Shown: piece after piece, positions 4,843-14,993 of the stretch
Numbering within the stretch: position 1 is the first letter of the stretch
Layout of the letters: each line of letters starts with the position of its first letter
Source of the DNA: Acidobacteriota bacterium
GTDB taxonomy: Bacteria > Acidobacteriota > Terriglobia > Terriglobales > Acidobacteriaceae
Direction: 5' to 3'
Assembly (NCBI GenBank): GCA_021779935.1
Contig: JAJXZT010000040.1
Span: forward strand, 1 to 64,000
DNA length: 64,000 nucleotides
The notes under the pieces: generated by a model
What the model was told of the DNA's origin: nothing
Database searches by the model: none
What the model saw: only the letters and a program-made list of their open reading frames with translations
Position numbers and translations under genes: made by a program

Positions 4843-5235
4843 TCAGTGCTTGCAGGCGCAGAAGCCGGCCCCTGTGCTGTTTCCGCCCTCTTTCAGATAG
4901 CGCGCCAGCGCTTCGTCGGCGGAGGTCACGCCCGGAACGACCACCGGTTGGATGCCCTGTGCCTTGAGTGCCTGTGCGGCGCCTCCGCCCATTCCTCCGC
5001 AGAGCACCACTCCGCAATCCTCCAGCAGTCCGACGATCCCCGTGTGGCTATGCTGGCCGTGTTCATGTTGGCCATCGTGGTTGCACAATCCCTGTGCGTG
5101 CGGCGTGCGATCGTTCGTTCTTACTTCCTGCCGGTTCGCCGACTCGCCTTCGACTTCGTAGATGATGAATCCCGCGCTTTGTCCAAAGTGCTGCGACATG
5201 GAAATCCCATCGACTGTTGCCACTGCTATTTTCAT
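4843..5235 (-). CDS. NifX/NafY-family (dinitrogenase Fe-Mo cofactor-type) protein, His-rich
   Basis: The 130-residue protein matches the small NifX/MTH1175 family that binds Fe-S or Fe-Mo clusters. It starts MKIAVATVDGISMSQHFGQS and has the glycine-rich core LCGGMGGGAAQALKAQGIQPVVV. A loop at about residues 50-65 is rich in His (HDGQHEHGQHSH), and the chain ends in CACKH; both could bind metal. A GGAG ribosome site precedes the ATG. No nif structural genes are in the window, so nitrogen fixation is not implied. It is downstream of a second family member on the same strand. Confidence 0.85.
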   Translation of the reverse strand: MKIAVATVDGISMSQHFGQSAGFIIYEVEGESANRQEVRTNDRTPHAQGLCNHDGQHEHGQHSHTGIVGLLEDCGVVLCGGMGGGAAQALKAQGIQPVVVPGVTSADEALARYLKEGGNSTGAGFCACKH

Positions 5236-5287: not shown

Positions 5288-5668
5288 TCACGCGCCTTGC
5301 CCGGTCTTCCCGTGAATATGAAGCCCGTGCCCGCCGCTTGATGCCTTCCTGTCGTGCCGCAACTCTCCGCGCACATACATCCGGCGAAGTTCCGTTAGCG
5401 GAATGTCCGCGGGCGCCGACCAACCGTAGATGTGAGCATCCTTCAAATGCTGCAAGGCTCCTTCGCCGATGGCCGTAAAGACCACATCCTCGCAGCCGTG
5501 TTTCACAAGCATCTCCACCACGGTCTTGCCGTTCAGTCCCGTATTCTGGAAAAATTCACAAGTGTCCTTCTGCAGGTCAACCACCGCCAGCCACTTTGCC
5601 TTGCCGAAATGCGGTGAGAGTTTCGAATCCTCCCGTTTCAATAGCGTCATAAACCCGATTTTGCCCAT
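5288..5668 (-). CDS. NifX-like Fe-Mo cofactor-binding family protein
   Basis: This second small NifX/MTH1175-type protein (126 residues) has MGKIGFMTLLKREDSKLSPHFGKAKWLAVVDL and later LVKHGCEDVVFTAIGEGALQHLKDAHIYGW. The SPHFGKA block corresponds to SQHFGQS in the neighbour. The C-terminal tail contains HGLHIHGKTG, again His-rich. The start ATG at 5668 has an AGGAG site 9 bases upstream; an in-frame ATG further up is less well placed. It probably forms an operon with the NifX-like gene at 4843-5235 and is transcribed divergently from the PadR operon across a shared palindrome. Confidence 0.8.
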   Translation of the reverse strand: MGKIGFMTLLKREDSKLSPHFGKAKWLAVVDLQKDTCEFFQNTGLNGKTVVEMLVKHGCEDVVFTAIGEGALQHLKDAHIYGWSAPADIPLTELRRMYVRGELRHDRKASSGGHGLHIHGKTGQGA

Positions 5669-5724
5669 CACTGTTTCTCCTGCCATTGCATCGGCTCGCA
5701 CAATGTTGTAGCCGATATTTATCG

Positions 5725-5747
5725 TATAGATGTAATATACACCTATA
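5725..5747. promoter_or_regulatory. Near-perfect palindrome, probable PadR operator
   Basis: The 23-bp element has arms TATAG-x-TGTA and TACA-x-CTATA around a 3-bp centre, with a single mismatched pair. It sits in the divergent region between the NifX-like gene and the padR gene. PadR-family operators are typically AT-rich dyads with TGTA/TACA or ATGT/ACAT arms, so autoregulation and control of both sides are likely. The function is inferred; no binding data exist here. Confidence 0.65.
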
Positions 5748-5783
5748 TGATGGTTACTTCAGTGAACCGGAAGGACGCCTGAG

Positions 5784-6161
5784 ATGCCACGCGGGTTCTG
5801 CGCCCGGCACGGACGCAATCATCCATGCACTTGCGCCATGGGCAATGTCTATCGCTTCATTGAGCCGGTCCTGTTGCTCATGCTCAAGGAGAAAGGGCAC
5901 TCGTACGGCTACGATTTATCCGAGAGCCTGAAGGACTACGCCCTCACGGATGCCCGAATTGAACGCGCTGCCCTGTATCGCACGCTGCGAACGCTTGAAC
6001 AAAATGGATACGTGAAGTCAACATGGGATGTCGAGGGGGGCGGTCCGGCCCGGCGGGTCTATTCCCTTACCCGCAGCGGGCATGGCCATCTTCGCGAGTG
6101 GGCCGAAGTGATGGACCGGTTGTCGAAATCCATGAAGACGTTTGTGAAGAAGGCGATATGA
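5784..6161 (+). CDS. PadR family transcriptional regulator with Cys/His N-terminal extension
   Basis: The 125-residue protein contains a PadR winged-helix domain: YRFIEPVLLLMLKEKGHSYGYDLSE, then ALYRTLRTLEQNGYV, then RRVYSLTRSGHGHLREW. Before the fold comes a short extension with Cys6, His9, His13, Cys15 and Cys17 (CARHGRNHPCTC), which looks like a metal or redox site rather than a random lead. AAGGA lies about 8 bases before the ATG. The stop overlaps the next start (ATGA), so it is coupled to the thioredoxin-VKOR genes. It probably binds the 5725-5747 dyad. Confidence 0.88.
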   Translation: MPRGFCARHGRNHPCTCAMGNVYRFIEPVLLLMLKEKGHSYGYDLSESLKDYALTDARIERAALYRTLRTLEQNGYVKSTWDVEGGGPARRVYSLTRSGHGHLREWAEVMDRLSKSMKTFVKKAI

Positions 6162-6553
6162 ACATGAATTTGGTGTCACGCAAGACATTCATCCGGGCCG
6201 TACACTTCTCGGTGCTTATTGCCTCTGCACTATTCTGTTTCACGGCTTCGGCCGCCGCGCCCAAGTCCCATCGACTCGACGCTTTTGCGCAATGCCTTGC
6301 AACCAAGAAGGCGACCATGTACGGAAGCCTTCGCTGCCCGCATTGCGACGACCAGCGTGCCATCTTCGGCGACTCCTTCCGTTATGTGCCTTACATTGAG
6401 TGTTCCGTTGCGGGCAGTCGTAACATCTCGTTTGCCTGCGATTTGGCGCGCGTTCGCTACACGCCCACCTGGATCTTTGCCGATGGCGAGCGCAAGGTTG
6501 GCATATTGACGCTTCAGCAACTCAGCACAAAAACAGGGTGCCGGCTGCCATGA
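6158..6553 (+). CDS. Exported thioredoxin-fold partner of VKOR
   Basis: A signal peptide (residues 1-34, ending SAAAP) is followed by a small thioredoxin-like domain with the active site C60-P-H-C63 in MYGSLRCPHCDDQ. Further blocks are YVPYIECSVAG and YTPTWIFADGER, and the end is GCRLP. These blocks match the thioredoxin domain that is fused to VKOR in plants and cyanobacteria. Here it is a separate gene that overlaps both padR (ATGA) and the VKOR gene (ATGA). It likely oxidises cysteines of envelope proteins and is reoxidised by VKOR. Confidence 0.85.
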   Translation: MNMNLVSRKTFIRAVHFSVLIASALFCFTASAAAPKSHRLDAFAQCLATKKATMYGSLRCPHCDDQRAIFGDSFRYVPYIECSVAGSRNISFACDLARVRYTPTWIFADGERKVGILTLQQLSTKTGCRLP

Positions 6554-6987
6554 ATCGGATCCTTCTTTATCTCCTGATGGCTTTTTGCCTGATTGGCGCG
6601 GTGCTTTCCGCCTTCTCGCTACGTGCCCACTACTCCACGTCCACCACCGAGTACTGCGCCCTCGACGAGACTTTCAATTGCGACTATGTCAACCGCAGCT
6701 CGTACTCGAAGTTGCTTGGCGTGCCCGTCGCGCTCATTGGATTACTCGGCTACCTGTTGCTCTTCGGCATCTCGTTCCGCCGCGACCGCCTCTTCGCCAC
6801 GTTTCGCTTCGCAGCCTCCATCGTTGGTCTCGGCTTTGCGCTCTACCTCACGTACATCGAGGCTTATGTGCTCCTGACGTGGTGCCTGCTTTGTATCGGA
6901 TCGCTCATCGCGATTGCCACGATCACTATTCTCTCCGGCGTAGGATGGTTCCAACTCCAATCCGCCGGCAGACAGGCGAACTCCTGA
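6550..6987 (+). CDS. Vitamin K epoxide reductase (VKOR) family protein
   Basis: This integral membrane protein has 145 residues and four TM helices. VKOR homologues reoxidise a thioredoxin-like partner and pass electrons to quinone, replacing DsbB. The signature cysteines are Cys36 and Cys44 (YCALDETFNCDYVN) in the loop and the CxxC pair Cys112/Cys115 (WCLLCIG). The YSKLLGVPVALIGLLGY block is typical. The ATG at 6550 overlaps the preceding stop as ATGA; a GTG at 6538 is possible but less likely. It is translationally coupled to the exported thioredoxin. Confidence 0.93.
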   Translation: MNRILLYLLMAFCLIGAVLSAFSLRAHYSTSTTEYCALDETFNCDYVNRSSYSKLLGVPVALIGLLGYLLLFGISFRRDRLFATFRFAASIVGLGFALYLTYIEAYVLLTWCLLCIGSLIAIATITILSGVGWFQLQSAGRQANS

Positions 6988-6988
6988 C

Positions 6989-7444
6989 ATGGATTCTCTT
7001 TCTCAATGCGCGGTGGAAGCGCCACTTCGTCATCAGGCGCGGTTGAACCCATCCTGCATTGTCTGTGGCAGCCAGAATCCAAAAGGGCTCGCCATTCAAT
7101 TTCGCGTCGAAGCCGACGGTGCTCACGCCGAATGGATTCCATCGGGCGATTGGGAAAGTTTCCAGGGAGTCATCCACGGCGGAATCATCAGCACGGTTCT
7201 TGACGAAGCGATGTCGAAGGCAATCGTTGCCTGCGGATGGGAAGCTTTCACCGTCGATTTGCGTGTCCGGTTTCGCGGCCGCGTAACGCCCGGAGAGACT
7301 CTGCTGATTCGCGGCTGGATCGTCGATAAGCGGAAACGCCTTATCCGCGCCGAATCTGCCATAAGCACGCGCGATGGCGAGGAACGGGCGCACGCATGGG
7401 CTACTTTTCTGACGCCGCCGGCTGTGGCCGAGAAAACTCCCTAG
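6989..7444 (+). CDS. PaaI-type hotdog-fold thioesterase
   Basis: The 151-residue protein has a C-terminal hotdog domain of the PaaI/YbaW type, which hydrolyses acyl-CoA thioesters. The helix motif HGGIISTVLDEAM (His63, Gly64-65, Asp72) is the active-site region. An N-terminal CIVCGSQNPKGL block resembles a small metal knuckle found in related proteins. It starts one base after the VKOR stop and is therefore the last gene of the padR operon. Its substrate is unknown, and a link to disulfide chemistry is not obvious. Confidence 0.85.
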   Translation: MDSLSQCAVEAPLRHQARLNPSCIVCGSQNPKGLAIQFRVEADGAHAEWIPSGDWESFQGVIHGGIISTVLDEAMSKAIVACGWEAFTVDLRVRFRGRVTPGETLLIRGWIVDKRKRLIRAESAISTRDGEERAHAWATFLTPPAVAEKTP

Positions 7445-8684: not shown

Positions 8685-9326
8685 CTAGAATCCGTTTGGC
8701 GCTCGTTGACGGATAAGCGACAGGAACTCGGTTCGCGTGTCGATGTCGCGGAAGACGCCGAGCATCGCCGATGTCACGGCGGCGGAATGCTGCTTCTCCA
8801 CTCCCCGCATCATCATGCACAGGTGACGCGCCTCGATGACGACCCCGACGCCCTGCGGCTGAATCATCTCCTCGATCGCTTCCGCTATCTGCCGCGTCAT
8901 GCGCTCCTGCACCTGCAATCGCCGCGAGAACAACTCCACCAGCCGTGGCAGCTTGCTGAGCCCGATCACTTTGCCATTCGGAATATAGGCAATGTGCACC
9001 TTGCCGAAGAACGGGAGCATGTGGTGCTCGCACATGCTGAACATTTCAATGTCTTTCACAATGACCATCTCGTCATAGTCGACCGTGAATAGAGCATCGT
9101 TCAGGATCTCCCGCGGATCCTCGTGGTATCCCTTCGTCAGGAACTCCATCGCTTTTGCAACGCGTTCCGGGGTACGCACCAGTCCCTCGCGCGCAGGATC
9201 TTCTCCCAGGCGCACCAGCATTTCGCGCACCAGGTCCTCGTATGCCGCACTGCTCAGGGGTGAATTCTCTGTTTTCTGTTTCATCAGCGTTGTCGTCGAA
9301 TCCATGGTCTTCTCGCTCATGTCCAT
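8685..9326 (-). CDS. folE: GTP cyclohydrolase I
   Basis: FolE converts GTP to 7,8-dihydroneopterin triphosphate, the first step to folate, biopterin and queuosine precursors. The family blocks are all present: [61 protein letters not shown] and [11 protein letters not shown]. The zinc ligands (Cys of CEHH, His, Cys of HLCMMM) are conserved. The ATG at 9326 overlaps the upstream PTPS stop as TGATG, so translation is coupled. In-frame GTG at 9329 and ATG at 9320 are alternatives. A terminator follows. Confidence 0.96.
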
Positions 9327-9748
9327 CACGGTCTGAATGGCTCCGCCTCGGAGTATTCGAATGCGTTATTGGCTGTCTCTTCGAGTCGTACTCTTTCAAG
9401 ATGAGCGGAGTGAAAAGAGTGTTTCACAATCTTAAAGATTATTTCCGCAAGGCATTCCGTGGTAGGCACAATTCCGTCGAATTCTTTCATGGAATTCAAA
9501 TTCTGATGGTCAAAGCGCTCGACCACTTCCGCCCGCACACAACCGTCCAGATCGACCAGATTGCAAACCATCCCGGTACGTCCGTCCACCTCGCCGCTCA
9601 CTGTTACCTCCAGCGCGTAGTTGTGGCCGTGTCCATGCGGATTGTTGCACTTCCCATAGATCGCGCGATTTCGTTCCGCATCGAACTCTTCGCTGTGCAG
9701 CCGGTGCGACGACGAAAACCAGTAGCGCCGCGTCAAGTGTGCTTTCAT
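9326..9748 (-). CDS. 6-pyruvoyl-tetrahydropterin synthase family protein (copy 2)
   Basis: The 140-residue PTPS-fold enzyme has zinc ligands His15 (FSSSHRLH), His40 and His42 ([10 protein letters not shown]). The catalytic Cys34 is in GKCNNP, followed by FDHQNLN and PTTECLAE. The Cys-x5-His-Gly-His spacing is the type of animal PTPS and bacterial PTPS-II, not the Cys-x3-HGH of E. coli QueD. The substrate is dihydroneopterin triphosphate, giving 6-pyruvoyl- or 6-carboxy-tetrahydropterin. It sits 4 bp after copy 1 and overlaps folE. The start [15 protein letters not shown] is preferred to an upstream ATG inside copy 1. Confidence 0.9.
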
Positions 9749-9752
9749 CGCG

Positions 9753-10160
9753 CTACTCTCCGTAGTAGTCCACAAAGAGGTCCTGCATTTCGTAGAGCCG
9801 GACCCGGTGCAGTTTCGCCACGCTCAACTTTCCTTCCAGCCGTTGCCAGATCGCGATTGCGATATTTTCGGTGGTTGGAATCGCCCGCGCAAATTCCGGC
9901 ACTTCCTTGTTCAGGTGACGATGATCCATGGCATCCATCACTTCGGCGTTCAGGATGTCTTTCAGCTTCTTCAGGTCCATCACGAACCCGGTCTTGGGAT
10001 CGATCTCCCCCTTCACGGTCACTTCCAGCGTGTAATTGTGCCCGTGCCCGTTGAGGTTGCTGCACTTCCCGAAGACGCGGCTATTCTCCTCCGCCGTAAA
10101 TTCGGGGTTGTGGTAGTAATGCGCGGCGGAAAATTCACACTTGCGGGTCAGGTAGACCAT
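9753..10160 (-). CDS. queD: 6-pyruvoyl-tetrahydropterin / 6-carboxytetrahydropterin synthase family protein (copy 1)
   Basis: The 135-residue PTPS-fold protein has zinc ligands His14, His39 and His41, catalytic Cys33 (GKCSNLNGHGHNY), MDHRHLN and PTTENIA. Like its neighbour it has Cys-x5-HGH. Two adjacent, divergent and apparently intact copies upstream of folE imply separate roles, for example one for queuosine and one for another pterin. No queC, queE or queF is in the window. The symbol reflects the family, not a proven function. Confidence 0.9.
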   Translation of the reverse strand: MVYLTRKCEFSAAHYYHNPEFTAEENSRVFGKCSNLNGHGHNYTLEVTVKGEIDPKTGFVMDLKKLKDILNAEVMDAMDHRHLNKEVPEFARAIPTTENIAIAIWQRLEGKLSVAKLHRVRLYEMQDLFVDYYGE

Positions 10161-11337: not shown

Positions 11338-11913
11338 ATGGAATTCGGTCGGAAAATCAATCTTTTCGATTTCCCTGCTCCCGAAGAAGGGGCGCTTTAT
11401 CGTATTATAAAGTCCGTGAAACGCATTGTGCCCATTATCCTCGCCCTGGTTGCCATCGGAGCCTTTTGGCTCATTCTTTCGCGCAACCCAAAGCCTGCAC
11501 AGATTGGTACCCAGGCACCCGATTTCACCATCAAGAACTCCGACAAGACAGTCACCCTTAGTCAGTTTCGCGGCAAAACCGTCGTGCTCAACTTCTGGGC
11601 GACATGGTGTCCGCCGTGTGTCGAGGAAGTCCCCTCGCTGGTTCAGATGCAGAAGACCCTCGACGGCAAGGTTGTCGTGGTGGCTGTCTCCATGGACGTT
11701 GACGCCGGCGCCTATCACCAGTTCGTCGCCAAGAACATGCCGGGCGTTCTCACCCTCCGCGATGGCGATCAGCGCACCAATGCGTTGTTCGGCACCTACG
11801 CATTTCCGGAGACGTACGTGATCGACAAAAACGGGATCATCCGGCGCAAGTTTATCGGCGCAACCGATTGGATGTCGCCCGAGATCCTCGACTACCTGTC
11901 GAAGATCCAATAA
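11338..11913 (+). CDS. Membrane-anchored TlpA/ResA-like thioredoxin
   Basis: One N-terminal TM helix (about residues 31-47) anchors a periplasmic thioredoxin domain. It has APDFTIKN, VVLNFWATWCPPCVEEVPS with Cys91 and Cys94, and the cis-Pro region FPETYVIDKNG. Such proteins reduce disulfides for cytochrome c maturation or other envelope targets. The ATG at 11338 gives 191 residues with an unusual 26-residue leader; a GTG at 11416 would start the protein just before the TM helix and may be the true start. It converges with copA, ending 9 bp from the copA stop. Confidence 0.88.
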   Translation: MEFGRKINLFDFPAPEEGALYRIIKSVKRIVPIILALVAIGAFWLILSRNPKPAQIGTQAPDFTIKNSDKTVTLSQFRGKTVVLNFWATWCPPCVEEVPSLVQMQKTLDGKVVVVAVSMDVDAGAYHQFVAKNMPGVLTLRDGDQRTNALFGTYAFPETYVIDKNGIIRRKFIGATDWMSPEILDYLSKIQ

Positions 11914-11922
11914 CCTGCTTTC

Positions 11923-14646
11923 CTATTGAAGCTTTACACTTCTCAGCCGTAGTGCGTTCGTTATCACGCTTACCGAGCTGAAGCTCATGGCTGCCGCCGC
12001 AAAGATCGGGCTCAGCAGCAATCCAAACACCGGGTACAGCACTCCCGCCGCCAGCGGCACGCCGATCCCGTTGTAGATGACCGCGAAGAACAGGTTCTGC
12101 CGGATGTTCCGCATTGTCGCTTCGCTCAGCTTCCGGGCCCGGACAATTCCCTGCAAGTCTCCGCGAAGCAGAGTGATGCCCGCGGACTGAATCGCCACAT
12201 CCGTTCCCGTGCCCATTGCGATGCCAACATGGGCGCGCGCCAGCGCCGGAGCGTCGTTCACGCCATCTCCGGCCATTGCCACCACGCGGCCCTGCTTTTG
12301 CAGTTTCTCAACGACTGCCGACTTCTGCTCCGGCAGAACTTCCGCCTCGAACTCCGTGATGCCCAACTTCGCCGCTACAGCCTTCGCCGTCGTGCGGTTG
12401 TCGCCCGTCAGCATCACAACGCGCAGATTGTCGTTTTTCAACGCCGCGATTGCGCTCTTTGCCGACTCCTTCACAGGGTCTTCAATTCCCAATAGGCCCG
12501 CCACTTTCCCATCCAGCGCGACGAACACCACGGTCTGCCCGTTGCCGCGCATCATATCGGCCTGCGACTCCAGGTGGTCCCACGCAATACCCAGTTCGTC
12601 CAGCAACCGCGTGTTGCCCACGGCGATCTTCCGTCCTTCTATTTCCGAAACCACGCCGCTACCCGGTATGTATCGGAAGCCATTCGCCGTGCCCAGCACG
12701 ATGTGGTTTTCTTCCGCGGCGCGCACCAATGCTTCGCCTAACGGATGTTCACTGCCGCGCTCCACGGTTGCGGCCAACCGCACAAGTTCTTCCTCGGCAA
12801 TTCCTCCCAGCGGAACCACGATTTCCAGCGAGGGCTTGCCTTCGGTGAGTGTCCCAGTCTTGTCAACCACCAGCGTGTCGACTTTTTCCATGGTTTCCAG
12901 CGCCTCGGCATTTTTAATCAACACGCCCGAGGTTGCTCCGCGGCCCGTACCCACCATGATTGCCATTGGCGTGGCCAGTCCCAGCGCACATGGGCAGGCG
13001 ATGATCAGCACGGCCACGGCGTTTACCAGCGCATTCGCCAACCTCGGCTCCGGTCCCCAAGTCATCCATGCAGCGAACGTAGCCACCGCGACGGCGATCA
13101 CCGCCGGCACGAATATGGCCGACACCTTATCCGCCAGCCGCTGAATTGGTGCGCGGCTGCGTTGCGCTTCGCTCACCATCTTTACAATCTGCGCCAGCAC
13201 CGTGTCACTGCCCACACGCTCGGCGCGCATCAGCAGCGTGCCGTTGCCGTTGACCGTCGCGCCCACGATCTTGCTTCCGCCCGCCTTCTCGACCGGGACG
13301 CTTTCTCCCGTAATCATCGACTCGTCGACCGTGCTGTGGCCGTCGATCACCACACCGTCCGTCGGAATCTTTTCACCCGGACGCACGCGCAGCGTCTGCC
13401 CTACTTGTACGAGTTCAAGCGGAATGTCTTTTTCGTTGCCCGCCTCGTCCACCACGCGCGCCATCTTCGGGGACATATCCAGCAATGCGCGAATCGCGCT
13501 GCTCGTCTGGCTTCGCGCCCGCAGTTCCATCACCTGTCCCACCAGCACAAGGATGATGATGGCCGCCGCCGCTTCAAAGTAAACTGCGGGTTGTCCGTGC
13601 ATGCCGCGCATCGCCGGCGGAAAGATCATCGGAAGAATCGTCGCCACCGCGCTGTAGACATACGCCACGCCGACGCCCATGCCAATTAACGTAAACATAT
13701 TGGTTGAGCGAAACTTCAGCGAGTTCCACGCGCGCACAAAAAACGGCCATCCACACCACCAGACGACCGGAGTCGCCAGCGCGAATTCGATCCATGCCGC
13801 CAGCCGCGCATTGATCGCGTGCTGCATCGGCCCCACCATGTGCGCCATTGCCAGCACCAGCAGTGGAACGCCGAACGCCAGGCTGATCCACAGCCGTGAC
13901 TTCATCTCGCGCAGTTCGGGATTTTGCTCTTGTTCGAGCGTGACGGTTCTCGGCTCCAATGCCATGCCACACTTTGGGCATGGTCCCGGCGCGTCTCTTA
14001 CCACCTCGGGATGCATCGGACACACGTATTCAATTTTTCGCGCCGGTTGAATCGTCTCCGGTTCCAGCGCCATGCCGCACGAGGGACACGGAACCGGACG
14101 CGTCTCCCTCACCTCGGGACACATCGGGCACACATACACAACGCCGCCCGGCGCGCTGGTCTCGGCTTTGTGGGAGTGCGTGGCGACCGGTGCGATGCCG
14201 CCCAATTGCACCATTCCGCCGCCCATCGCGTGCATCCCCGGCTTGTAGCCTGGGGCCAGATATTTTGCGGGTTCCGCGGCAAACTTCTCTCTGCACTTTG
14301 GATTGCAGAAGTAGTACGTCTCGCCCTTGTATTCGTGCGAGCCGCCCTTGGCTGTCGCGGGATCAACTGTCATCCCGCATACGGGGTCTACTGCTCGCTT
14401 TTCCGTTGCAGAGGGCGGCTTTATTCCGCCCAATTGCACCATGCCGCCATTTGTCCTGTGCATGCCTGGATTTTGGCTGGCGGCCAGGTACTTCTCCGGC
14501 TCGGCGCGGAATTTCTCGTTGCACTTCGGATTGCAGAAGTAATACGTCGTGCCCTTGTATTCGTGCGAGCCGCCCTTGGCTGTCGCCGGATCAACCATCA
14601 TTCCGCATACTGGGTCTTTCGTCTGCGCGTGTGTCTCGCCTGGCAT
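11923..14646 (-). CDS. copA: Copper/heavy-metal-exporting P1B-type ATPase with two YHS and two metal-binding repeats
   Basis: This 907-residue P1B ATPase exports copper-type cations. From the N-terminus come two YHS domains (DPVCGM...YYFCNPKC, about 76 residues apart), then two heavy-metal-binding repeats (YVCPMCPEV...CPSCGM and YVCPMHPEV...CPKCGM). The ATPase core follows: TGESVPVEK, the ion motif [30 protein letters not shown], and [22 protein letters not shown]. The classical CxxC HMA domain is absent. AAGGAG lies 7 bases before the ATG at 14646. It is 14 bp behind csoR in one operon, so induction by copper through CsoR is likely. Confidence 0.95.
14185..14616 (-). repeat. Tandem 228-bp duplication inside copA (YHS modules)
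   Basis: Two copies (14413-14616 and 14185-14388) encode nearly the same module, from DPVCGM through [15 protein letters not shown] and YYFCNPKC to [12 protein letters not shown] identity is high over long stretches, which indicates a recent internal duplication. The two CPMxPEV repeats downstream are also duplicated but more diverged. Confidence 0.85.
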
Positions 14647-14660
14647 AGTTGGATTCTCCT

Positions 14661-14993
14661 TCACCGCGAATAACGCATGAACAGCTCAACCAGTTCCTGG
14701 TACATTGCGTCCGCCTTGGGAGGCGAATGATGAATCGCGTGCGTTGCACAATGGCGCAAATGGTTTTCGAGCAACCCGCGCGCCACCTTGCGCAGCGCTT
14801 CCGTCACGGCCGAAACTTGTATCAGGATATCGGCGCAGTATCGGTCCTGCTCCACCATGCGCTGCAACCCTCGAACCTGGCCCTCCACGCGGCGTAAGCG
14901 GTGCAGATTGGCCTGCTTGATTTTTTCGTCCGTAGCTACGGCCTTCCTACCCGGCCCCGATTTTCCATGCGTTGTCACGTTGCTGTCCGTCAC
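14661..14993 (-). CDS. csoR: CsoR-type copper-sensing transcriptional repressor
   Basis: The 110-residue all-helical CsoR/RcnR-family repressor has [24 protein letters not shown] and a later [10 protein letters not shown]. The copper ligands Cys53, His78 and Cys82 have exactly the C-x24-H-x3-C spacing of copper-type CsoR, so Cu(I) is the expected effector. The start is a GTG with GGGAGG 6 bases upstream; the longer open frame to 15365 is spurious. It is followed 14 bp later by copA. Two G/C-tract palindromes just upstream are the expected operators, giving autoregulation. Confidence 0.93.

Follow-up and report, generated by a model that had tools for sequence, protein, structure and literature searches.

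A candidate PadR operator recurs before NifX-like and thiol-oxidase genes of soil bacteria

Results

Gene organization around a 23-bp dyad

The window, meaning the whole 64,000-nucleotide stretch of acidobacterial DNA that was analysed, carries two divergent gene units on either side of an intergenic region containing a 23-bp dyad (Table 1). The first-pass annotation had described a leftward pair of NifX-like proteins and a rightward set of PadR, exported thioredoxin, VKOR and thioesterase, and profile searches confirmed this description for all but the thioredoxin. The NifX-like pair matched PF02579 with 70.2 and 47.9 bits (gathering score 26.3), PadR matched PF03551 with 60.3 bits (gathering score 27) and VKOR matched PF07884 with 80 bits (against 27.5), the last having both the Cys loop CALDETFNC and the CLLC motif; the thioesterase was recognized by PF03061. 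The thioredoxin-like protein gave no match in a Pfam/NCBIfam search and is assigned by its CPHC motif and signal-like N-terminus; its homologue in one relative (L182, 2.7e-47) is encoded beside VKOR and a thioesterase. The start of nifX1 was placed behind an AGGAG sequence. The nifX2 protein has a His-rich loop and a C-terminal CACKH, and these two are the only PF02579 proteins of the home genome.

Table 1. Positions of the dyad and the genes around it in the window
Feature	Position	Strand	Evidence or remark
nifX2, NifX-like protein 2	4843-5235	-	PF02579 1.9e-19
nifX1, NifX-like protein 1 (DiNase domain)	5288-5668	-	PF02579 1.7e-12; first gene leftward
Divergent intergenic region holding the dyad	about 5669-5783		
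Candidate PadR operator dyad	5725-5747	.	TATAGATGTAATATACACCTATA; unique in genome; consensus conserved, spacing fixed
19-bp core of the dyad	5727-5745		TAGATGTAATATACACCTA
padR, small PadR regulator	5784-6161	+	PF03551 1.8e-16
trx, exported thioredoxin-like protein, CPHC motif	6158-6553	+	sequence; L182 homologue
vkor, 4-TM thiol oxidase	6550-6987	+	PF07884 2.3e-22
4HBT (hot-dog) thioesterase	6989-7444	+	PF03061 1.4e-9

The rightward genes are tightly packed. Translation of trx would begin at an ATG at 6158 or 6164, overlapping the padR stop or lying directly after it; the vkor start overlaps the trx stop, and the thioesterase gene begins 1 bp past vkor. Because these stops and starts overlap (as ATGA at trx/vkor and at padR/trx, the latter perhaps abutting instead) or abut, the arrangement indicates that padR, trx, vkor and the thioesterase gene are probably read as one transcript. 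At their outer ends the two units meet convergent genes, one for a rhomboid protein and one for an SDR, and both units are therefore cleanly bounded. No sigma-70-like promoter was recognized around the dyad.

The dyad lies exactly where it had first been reported and consists of an ATGT-N5-ACAC core plus extended TAG/CTA flanks. Complementary bases occupy nine of its 11 paired positions, which is not exceptional: the window contains 18 palindromes of 23 bp with at least 9/11 pairs, compared with about ten per composition-preserving shuffle. Symmetry alone was therefore dropped as evidence, and the weight of the dyad, unremarkable as a bare palindrome, comes from sequence conservation among relatives. 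The dyad was the sole match in the window at up to three mismatches and the sole match in a scan of the 4.49-Mb home genome. Additional weaker sites in that genome, at up to three mismatches, were as frequent for the forward motif (11) as for its reverse (12); therefore no further regulon sites can be claimed there, and the regulon in the home genome appears to be this single locus.

Conservation of the dyad upstream of padR

The comparison covered 79 relatives of PadR, all with the motif C-x2-H...P-C-x-C near the N-terminus. In 48 of them a 19-bp core, TAGRTGYA-N3-TRCAYCTA, was found within 250 bp upstream of padR at a threshold of at least 13/16 positions, which 0.3% of shuffled controls also reached, as did about 1% of the remaining segments from these loci, some of which are candidate sites themselves. 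The motif is visible by eye upstream of padR in close relatives, its consensus is TAGRTGYAANTTRCAYCTA, and the spacing of its halves is fixed, with TAGRTG and CAYCTA 7 bp apart in 34 of 34 cases. The other 31 relatives, those from Geobacteraceae included, lack a good site ahead of padR, and so in these the operator differs or sits elsewhere. Conservation among close relatives partly reflects shared ancestry; sites unlinked to padR provide evidence that is independent of it.

Sites across genomes

Across the 28 genomes encoding this PadR, 34 sites were found with at most one mismatch, while the reversed motif gave none in the same genomes. When 396 genomes of the phylum were scanned, a site was present in five of the six with a close PadR orthologue versus seven of the 390 others (Fisher 6e-8). 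The motif thus tracks the regulator across genomes.

Eleven of the sites lie apart from padR. Six of these precede NifX, VKOR, Mrp or metallo-beta-lactamase-fold/thioesterase genes, a seventh lies before a DUF5320-type gene, and four (in G403, G414, contig C415 of G417, and G401) have no recognizable regulon gene. In G345 the two best padR-unlinked sites lie before a NifX2-like gene and before a VKOR gene; an unlinked perfect site in G408 precedes a NifX-VKOR operon; G405 has one site before Mrp-NifX and another ahead of genes for a metallo-beta-lactamase-fold protein and then a thioesterase; and the G422 site is followed by a Gly-rich gene and, farther downstream, NifX. About 9/28 VKOR loci in PadR-bearing genomes carry a site, most VKOR genes having none.

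Two further perfect sites occur 2.5 kb apart at one locus (L143, 4346-4364 and 6908-6926) of genome G282, where the search turned up no close orthologue of PadR. Close to them are a DUF89-like gene and one for a SAM methyltransferase.

Gene arrangements in relatives

In GC-rich loci, antisense ORFs swelled the clusters obtained from mechanically called ORFs, and profile searches were therefore used for partner genes; gene calls in the relatives are mechanical ORFs checked by profile, with approximate starts. The layout of the window is repeated in genome G407 (L182), where NifX and PadR are encoded leftward of the dyad and an OB-fold-type protein, Trx, VKOR and thioesterase rightward. Elsewhere the same genes are rearranged: thioesterase-Trx-VKOR is divergent from padR in L121, with a second dyad before NifX; NifX-CoADR-thioesterase-Trx-VKOR is divergent from padR in L052, as is NifX-VKOR from padR-thioesterase in L125; and a separate site precedes NifX in L079. 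A relative of nifX2 (58% identical) adjoins padR in L003 and L032. NifX is the commonest partner of padR, thioesterase relatives lie within 2.5 kb of it in 18 loci, and VKOR is near it in only a handful. Conservation in related genomes, which the first-pass annotation had proposed as a check, was thus seen for the dyad before padR (48 of 79) and for the whole layout in G407, but strict synteny is not general.

Other candidate members near or behind sites are CoA-disulfide reductase (CoADR)-rhodanese, MauE, a VKOR-DsbA-rhodanese fusion and Mrp, as well as TrmO, a peroxiredoxin fragment and DUF5320; DsrE and IscU-like genes lie near padR in relatives. The names TrmO, DsrE, IscU and OB-fold were given by sequence resemblance, without a database match.

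The fusion protein (L123:8454-10136, 560 aa) joins thiol oxidation and sulfane-sulfur chemistry in one chain, and a perfect dyad, TAGATGTAAAGTACATCTA, lies about 60 bp upstream of its gene. The OB-fold-type protein of L182 (4552-4995), encoded between the dyad and Trx-VKOR-thioesterase, looks secreted, has a Cys/His-rich tail and gave no match in a Pfam search; similar proteins are encoded near sites in L050, L077 and L107. Two PadR paralogues of this subfamily, each with the Cys motif, lie within about 6 kb of each other on contig C230 of G407 (L077/L182).

A small PadR with a cysteine-bearing extension

By profile and predicted fold, the window regulator is a small PadR. Its AlphaFold model (pLDDT 88) predicts a winged helix followed by a C-terminal helix (97-124) and matches the fold of LmrR/PadR structures, with a Foldseek hit to the PadR structure 9qbc (E 3.7e-7, TM 0.73). 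The first 24 residues carry the C-x2-H...P-C-x-C motif within an N-terminal extension, CARHGRNHPCTC, that contains C6, H9, C15 and C17. The three cysteines are invariant and H9 is nearly invariant across 47 PadR sequences. By pattern the cysteines are present in 79 of 79 relatives, a figure that is partly by construction, the relatives having been collected with two seed patterns of which PC[TS]C includes cysteines and RF[IV]EPV is cysteine-independent.

Like the window protein, other small PadR regulators (PadR-s2, e.g. LmrR; Brachyspira PadR 9qbc; Thermotoga TM0937, 2esh) combine a winged helix with one C-terminal helix, and their palindromic operators share an ATGT/ACAT-like core with the dyad. 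The window PadR differs from the matched solved structures in its Cys3-His extension: the matches start at residue 25 or later, leaving residues 1-24 outside their coverage. Published PadR operators are ATGT-N8-10-ACAT inverted repeats in the members studied (PMC3506622). The half-sites of the dyad are closer (ATGT-N5-ACAY) and so depart from this 8-10 bp spacer, which is not family-defining. The candidate targets here are cluster and thiol genes rather than a drug pump.

The NifX-like proteins and nitrogenase

The NifX-like proteins had been annotated as metal-cofactor proteins. They share the PF02579 domain with the nitrogenase cofactor carriers NifX, NafY and the C-terminus of NifB, but a nitrogenase-cofactor sense does not hold. 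The pair stayed well under the cut-off of the NifX profile TIGR02663 (40.4 bits against 112), the NifB cut-off was likewise far from reached, and no nifH over cut-off was found in the home genome. A FeMo-cofactor reading was rejected on these grounds.

DiNase proteins also occur in the orange protein (ORP)/MrpORP system of Desulfovibrio together with Mrp/ParA ATPases, as among the regulon genes of several relatives; to our knowledge VKOR, thioredoxin and thioesterase are not part of that system. At the window locus no Mrp/ParA ATPase is fused to or beside the DiNase pair, and one occurs with DiNase in relatives such as L062, L089 and L177. The orp operons of Desulfovibrio are described as sigma54-dependent (PMC3897727), in contrast to the candidate PadR control here. 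Because both domains of MrpORP, the DiNase domain included, bind Fe-S clusters (PMC6345978), it is reasonable that the window NifX-like proteins may carry clusters.

The rightward unit resembles bacterial VKOR-thioredoxin (DsbB-DsbA-like) disulfide formation in pairing a VKOR that has a Cys loop and CxxC with an exported CPHC thioredoxin-like protein. It differs from such systems in lying under a candidate PadR operator together with NifX-like genes, and in ending with a thioesterase gene.

Discussion

The operator motif is conserved, is tied to one PadR subfamily and recurs before NifX, VKOR and other thiol or sulfur genes. Computationally, the operator and its regulon are well supported. It seems likely that the dyad serves as the operator of the neighbouring PadR, which would repress both units and use its cysteines as a sensor. 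That one regulator governs NifX-like and disulfide-formation genes together, as first suggested from the window, is largely upheld by comparison (48 of 79 relatives; sites in G345, G408 and G407), and both divergent sides of the window locus are probably under its control.

The following is inferred: that PadR binds the dyad, that it represses and does not activate, how it senses its signal, and what the system does for the cell. A PadR dimer, with one subunit per TAGRTGYA half-site, would bind within the intergenic region and repress nifX1-nifX2 as well as its own padR-trx-vkor-thioesterase operon. The sensor would be the conserved C6, C15 and C17, with H9 in most members; a change at the cysteines (persulfide or disulfide formation, or the binding or loss of a metal or Fe-S cluster) would cause the dimer to leave the DNA, allowing expression of both units. 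The cytoplasmic NifX-like proteins may then hold or ferry a metal-sulfur cluster, while the VKOR/thioredoxin pair would handle thiols in the envelope. We propose, in short, that this PadR represses its own gene and responds to thiol, persulfide or metal status.

The signal itself may be of two kinds. Tentatively, PadR could sense a metal or Fe-S cluster through its Cys3-His group, with a regulon for metal-sulfur cluster handling in which VKOR and Trx mature or protect exported proteins. The NifX-like proteins, Mrp/ParA ATPases and IscU-like genes near padR are consistent with this, as are the His/Cys-rich tails of NifX2 and of the L182 OB-fold-type protein and the Fe-S binding of DiNase in MrpORP (PMC6345978); however, no metal transporter was recognized among site-adjacent genes, and CoA-disulfide reductase-rhodanese, VKOR-DsbA-rhodanese, MauE and DsrE point equally to thiols or sulfane sulfur. 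These latter genes would suit a regulator of the second kind, also held tentatively, in which reactive sulfur or thiol redox change persulfidates or disulfide-bonds the cysteines and lifts repression so that sulfide or persulfide is detoxified or used. Site-adjacent genes for CoADR-rhodanese, the L123 fusion, MauE and a peroxiredoxin fragment argue for it, together with DsrE near padR and a site-adjacent FAD oxidoreductase (L076) resembling sulfide:quinone reductase, although the name of this last protein is a guess from weak Pfam matches and the most frequent partners, the NifX-like genes, are not known to encode persulfide enzymes.

PadR regulators often autoregulate, and most sites lie just upstream of padR. 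The dyad might on this basis be an autoregulatory site merely, with the nifX side outside its control and the divergent placement incidental; the padR-distant sites in front of NifX and VKOR genes, and the separate sites before NifX in L121 and L079, make this improbable. A chance palindrome or promoter remnant without regulatory role, to which the ordinary symmetry of the dyad would be suited, is already contradicted by sequence-specific conservation, fixed spacing and genome-wide enrichment with zero control matches, and is very improbable indeed.

Returning to a PadR operator serving both units, we lean towards the view that the PadR subfamily whose N-terminus bears the Cys3-His sensor stands at the head of a regulon conserved in Acidobacteriota and in some other phyla. 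Under its joint control would be the DiNase carriers of metal clusters and the thiol oxidases of the envelope (VKOR, MauE, VKOR-DsbA-rhodanese). Such a regulon would link the state of metal-sulfur clusters or persulfides in the cytoplasm to disulfide chemistry outside it. That many soil bacteria have the dyad before genes of these same kinds points to an undescribed circuit joining metal-cluster proteins and disulfide-bond machinery; in agreement with the first-pass annotation, which knew of no system with this combination, a literature search for PadR combined with NifX, VKOR, persulfide or Fe-S returned nothing relevant and no published description. Organisms without nitrogenase also have stand-alone NifX-like (DiNase) proteins, whose role is poorly understood. 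An operator and a regulon in which they repeatedly accompany thiol oxidases, rhodaneses and persulfide-type reductases offer a concrete, testable lead on DiNase function, and also suggest thiol or metal-cluster sensing by a PadR protein.

Several other genes of the home genome may be recorded here. A second VKOR gene (G000:C20:133029-133403, L202) has no dyad nearby. In the window, two adjacent ORFs resembling 6-pyruvoyl-tetrahydropterin synthase/QueD (9326-10160) lie by a folE-like ORF (8685-9329), all by sequence resemblance only. A large P-type ATPase ORF (11923-14664), unlinked to the dyad, begins with a series of YHS-like and metal-binding motifs in its N-terminal part and adjoins a TlpA-like thioredoxin (11338-11913).
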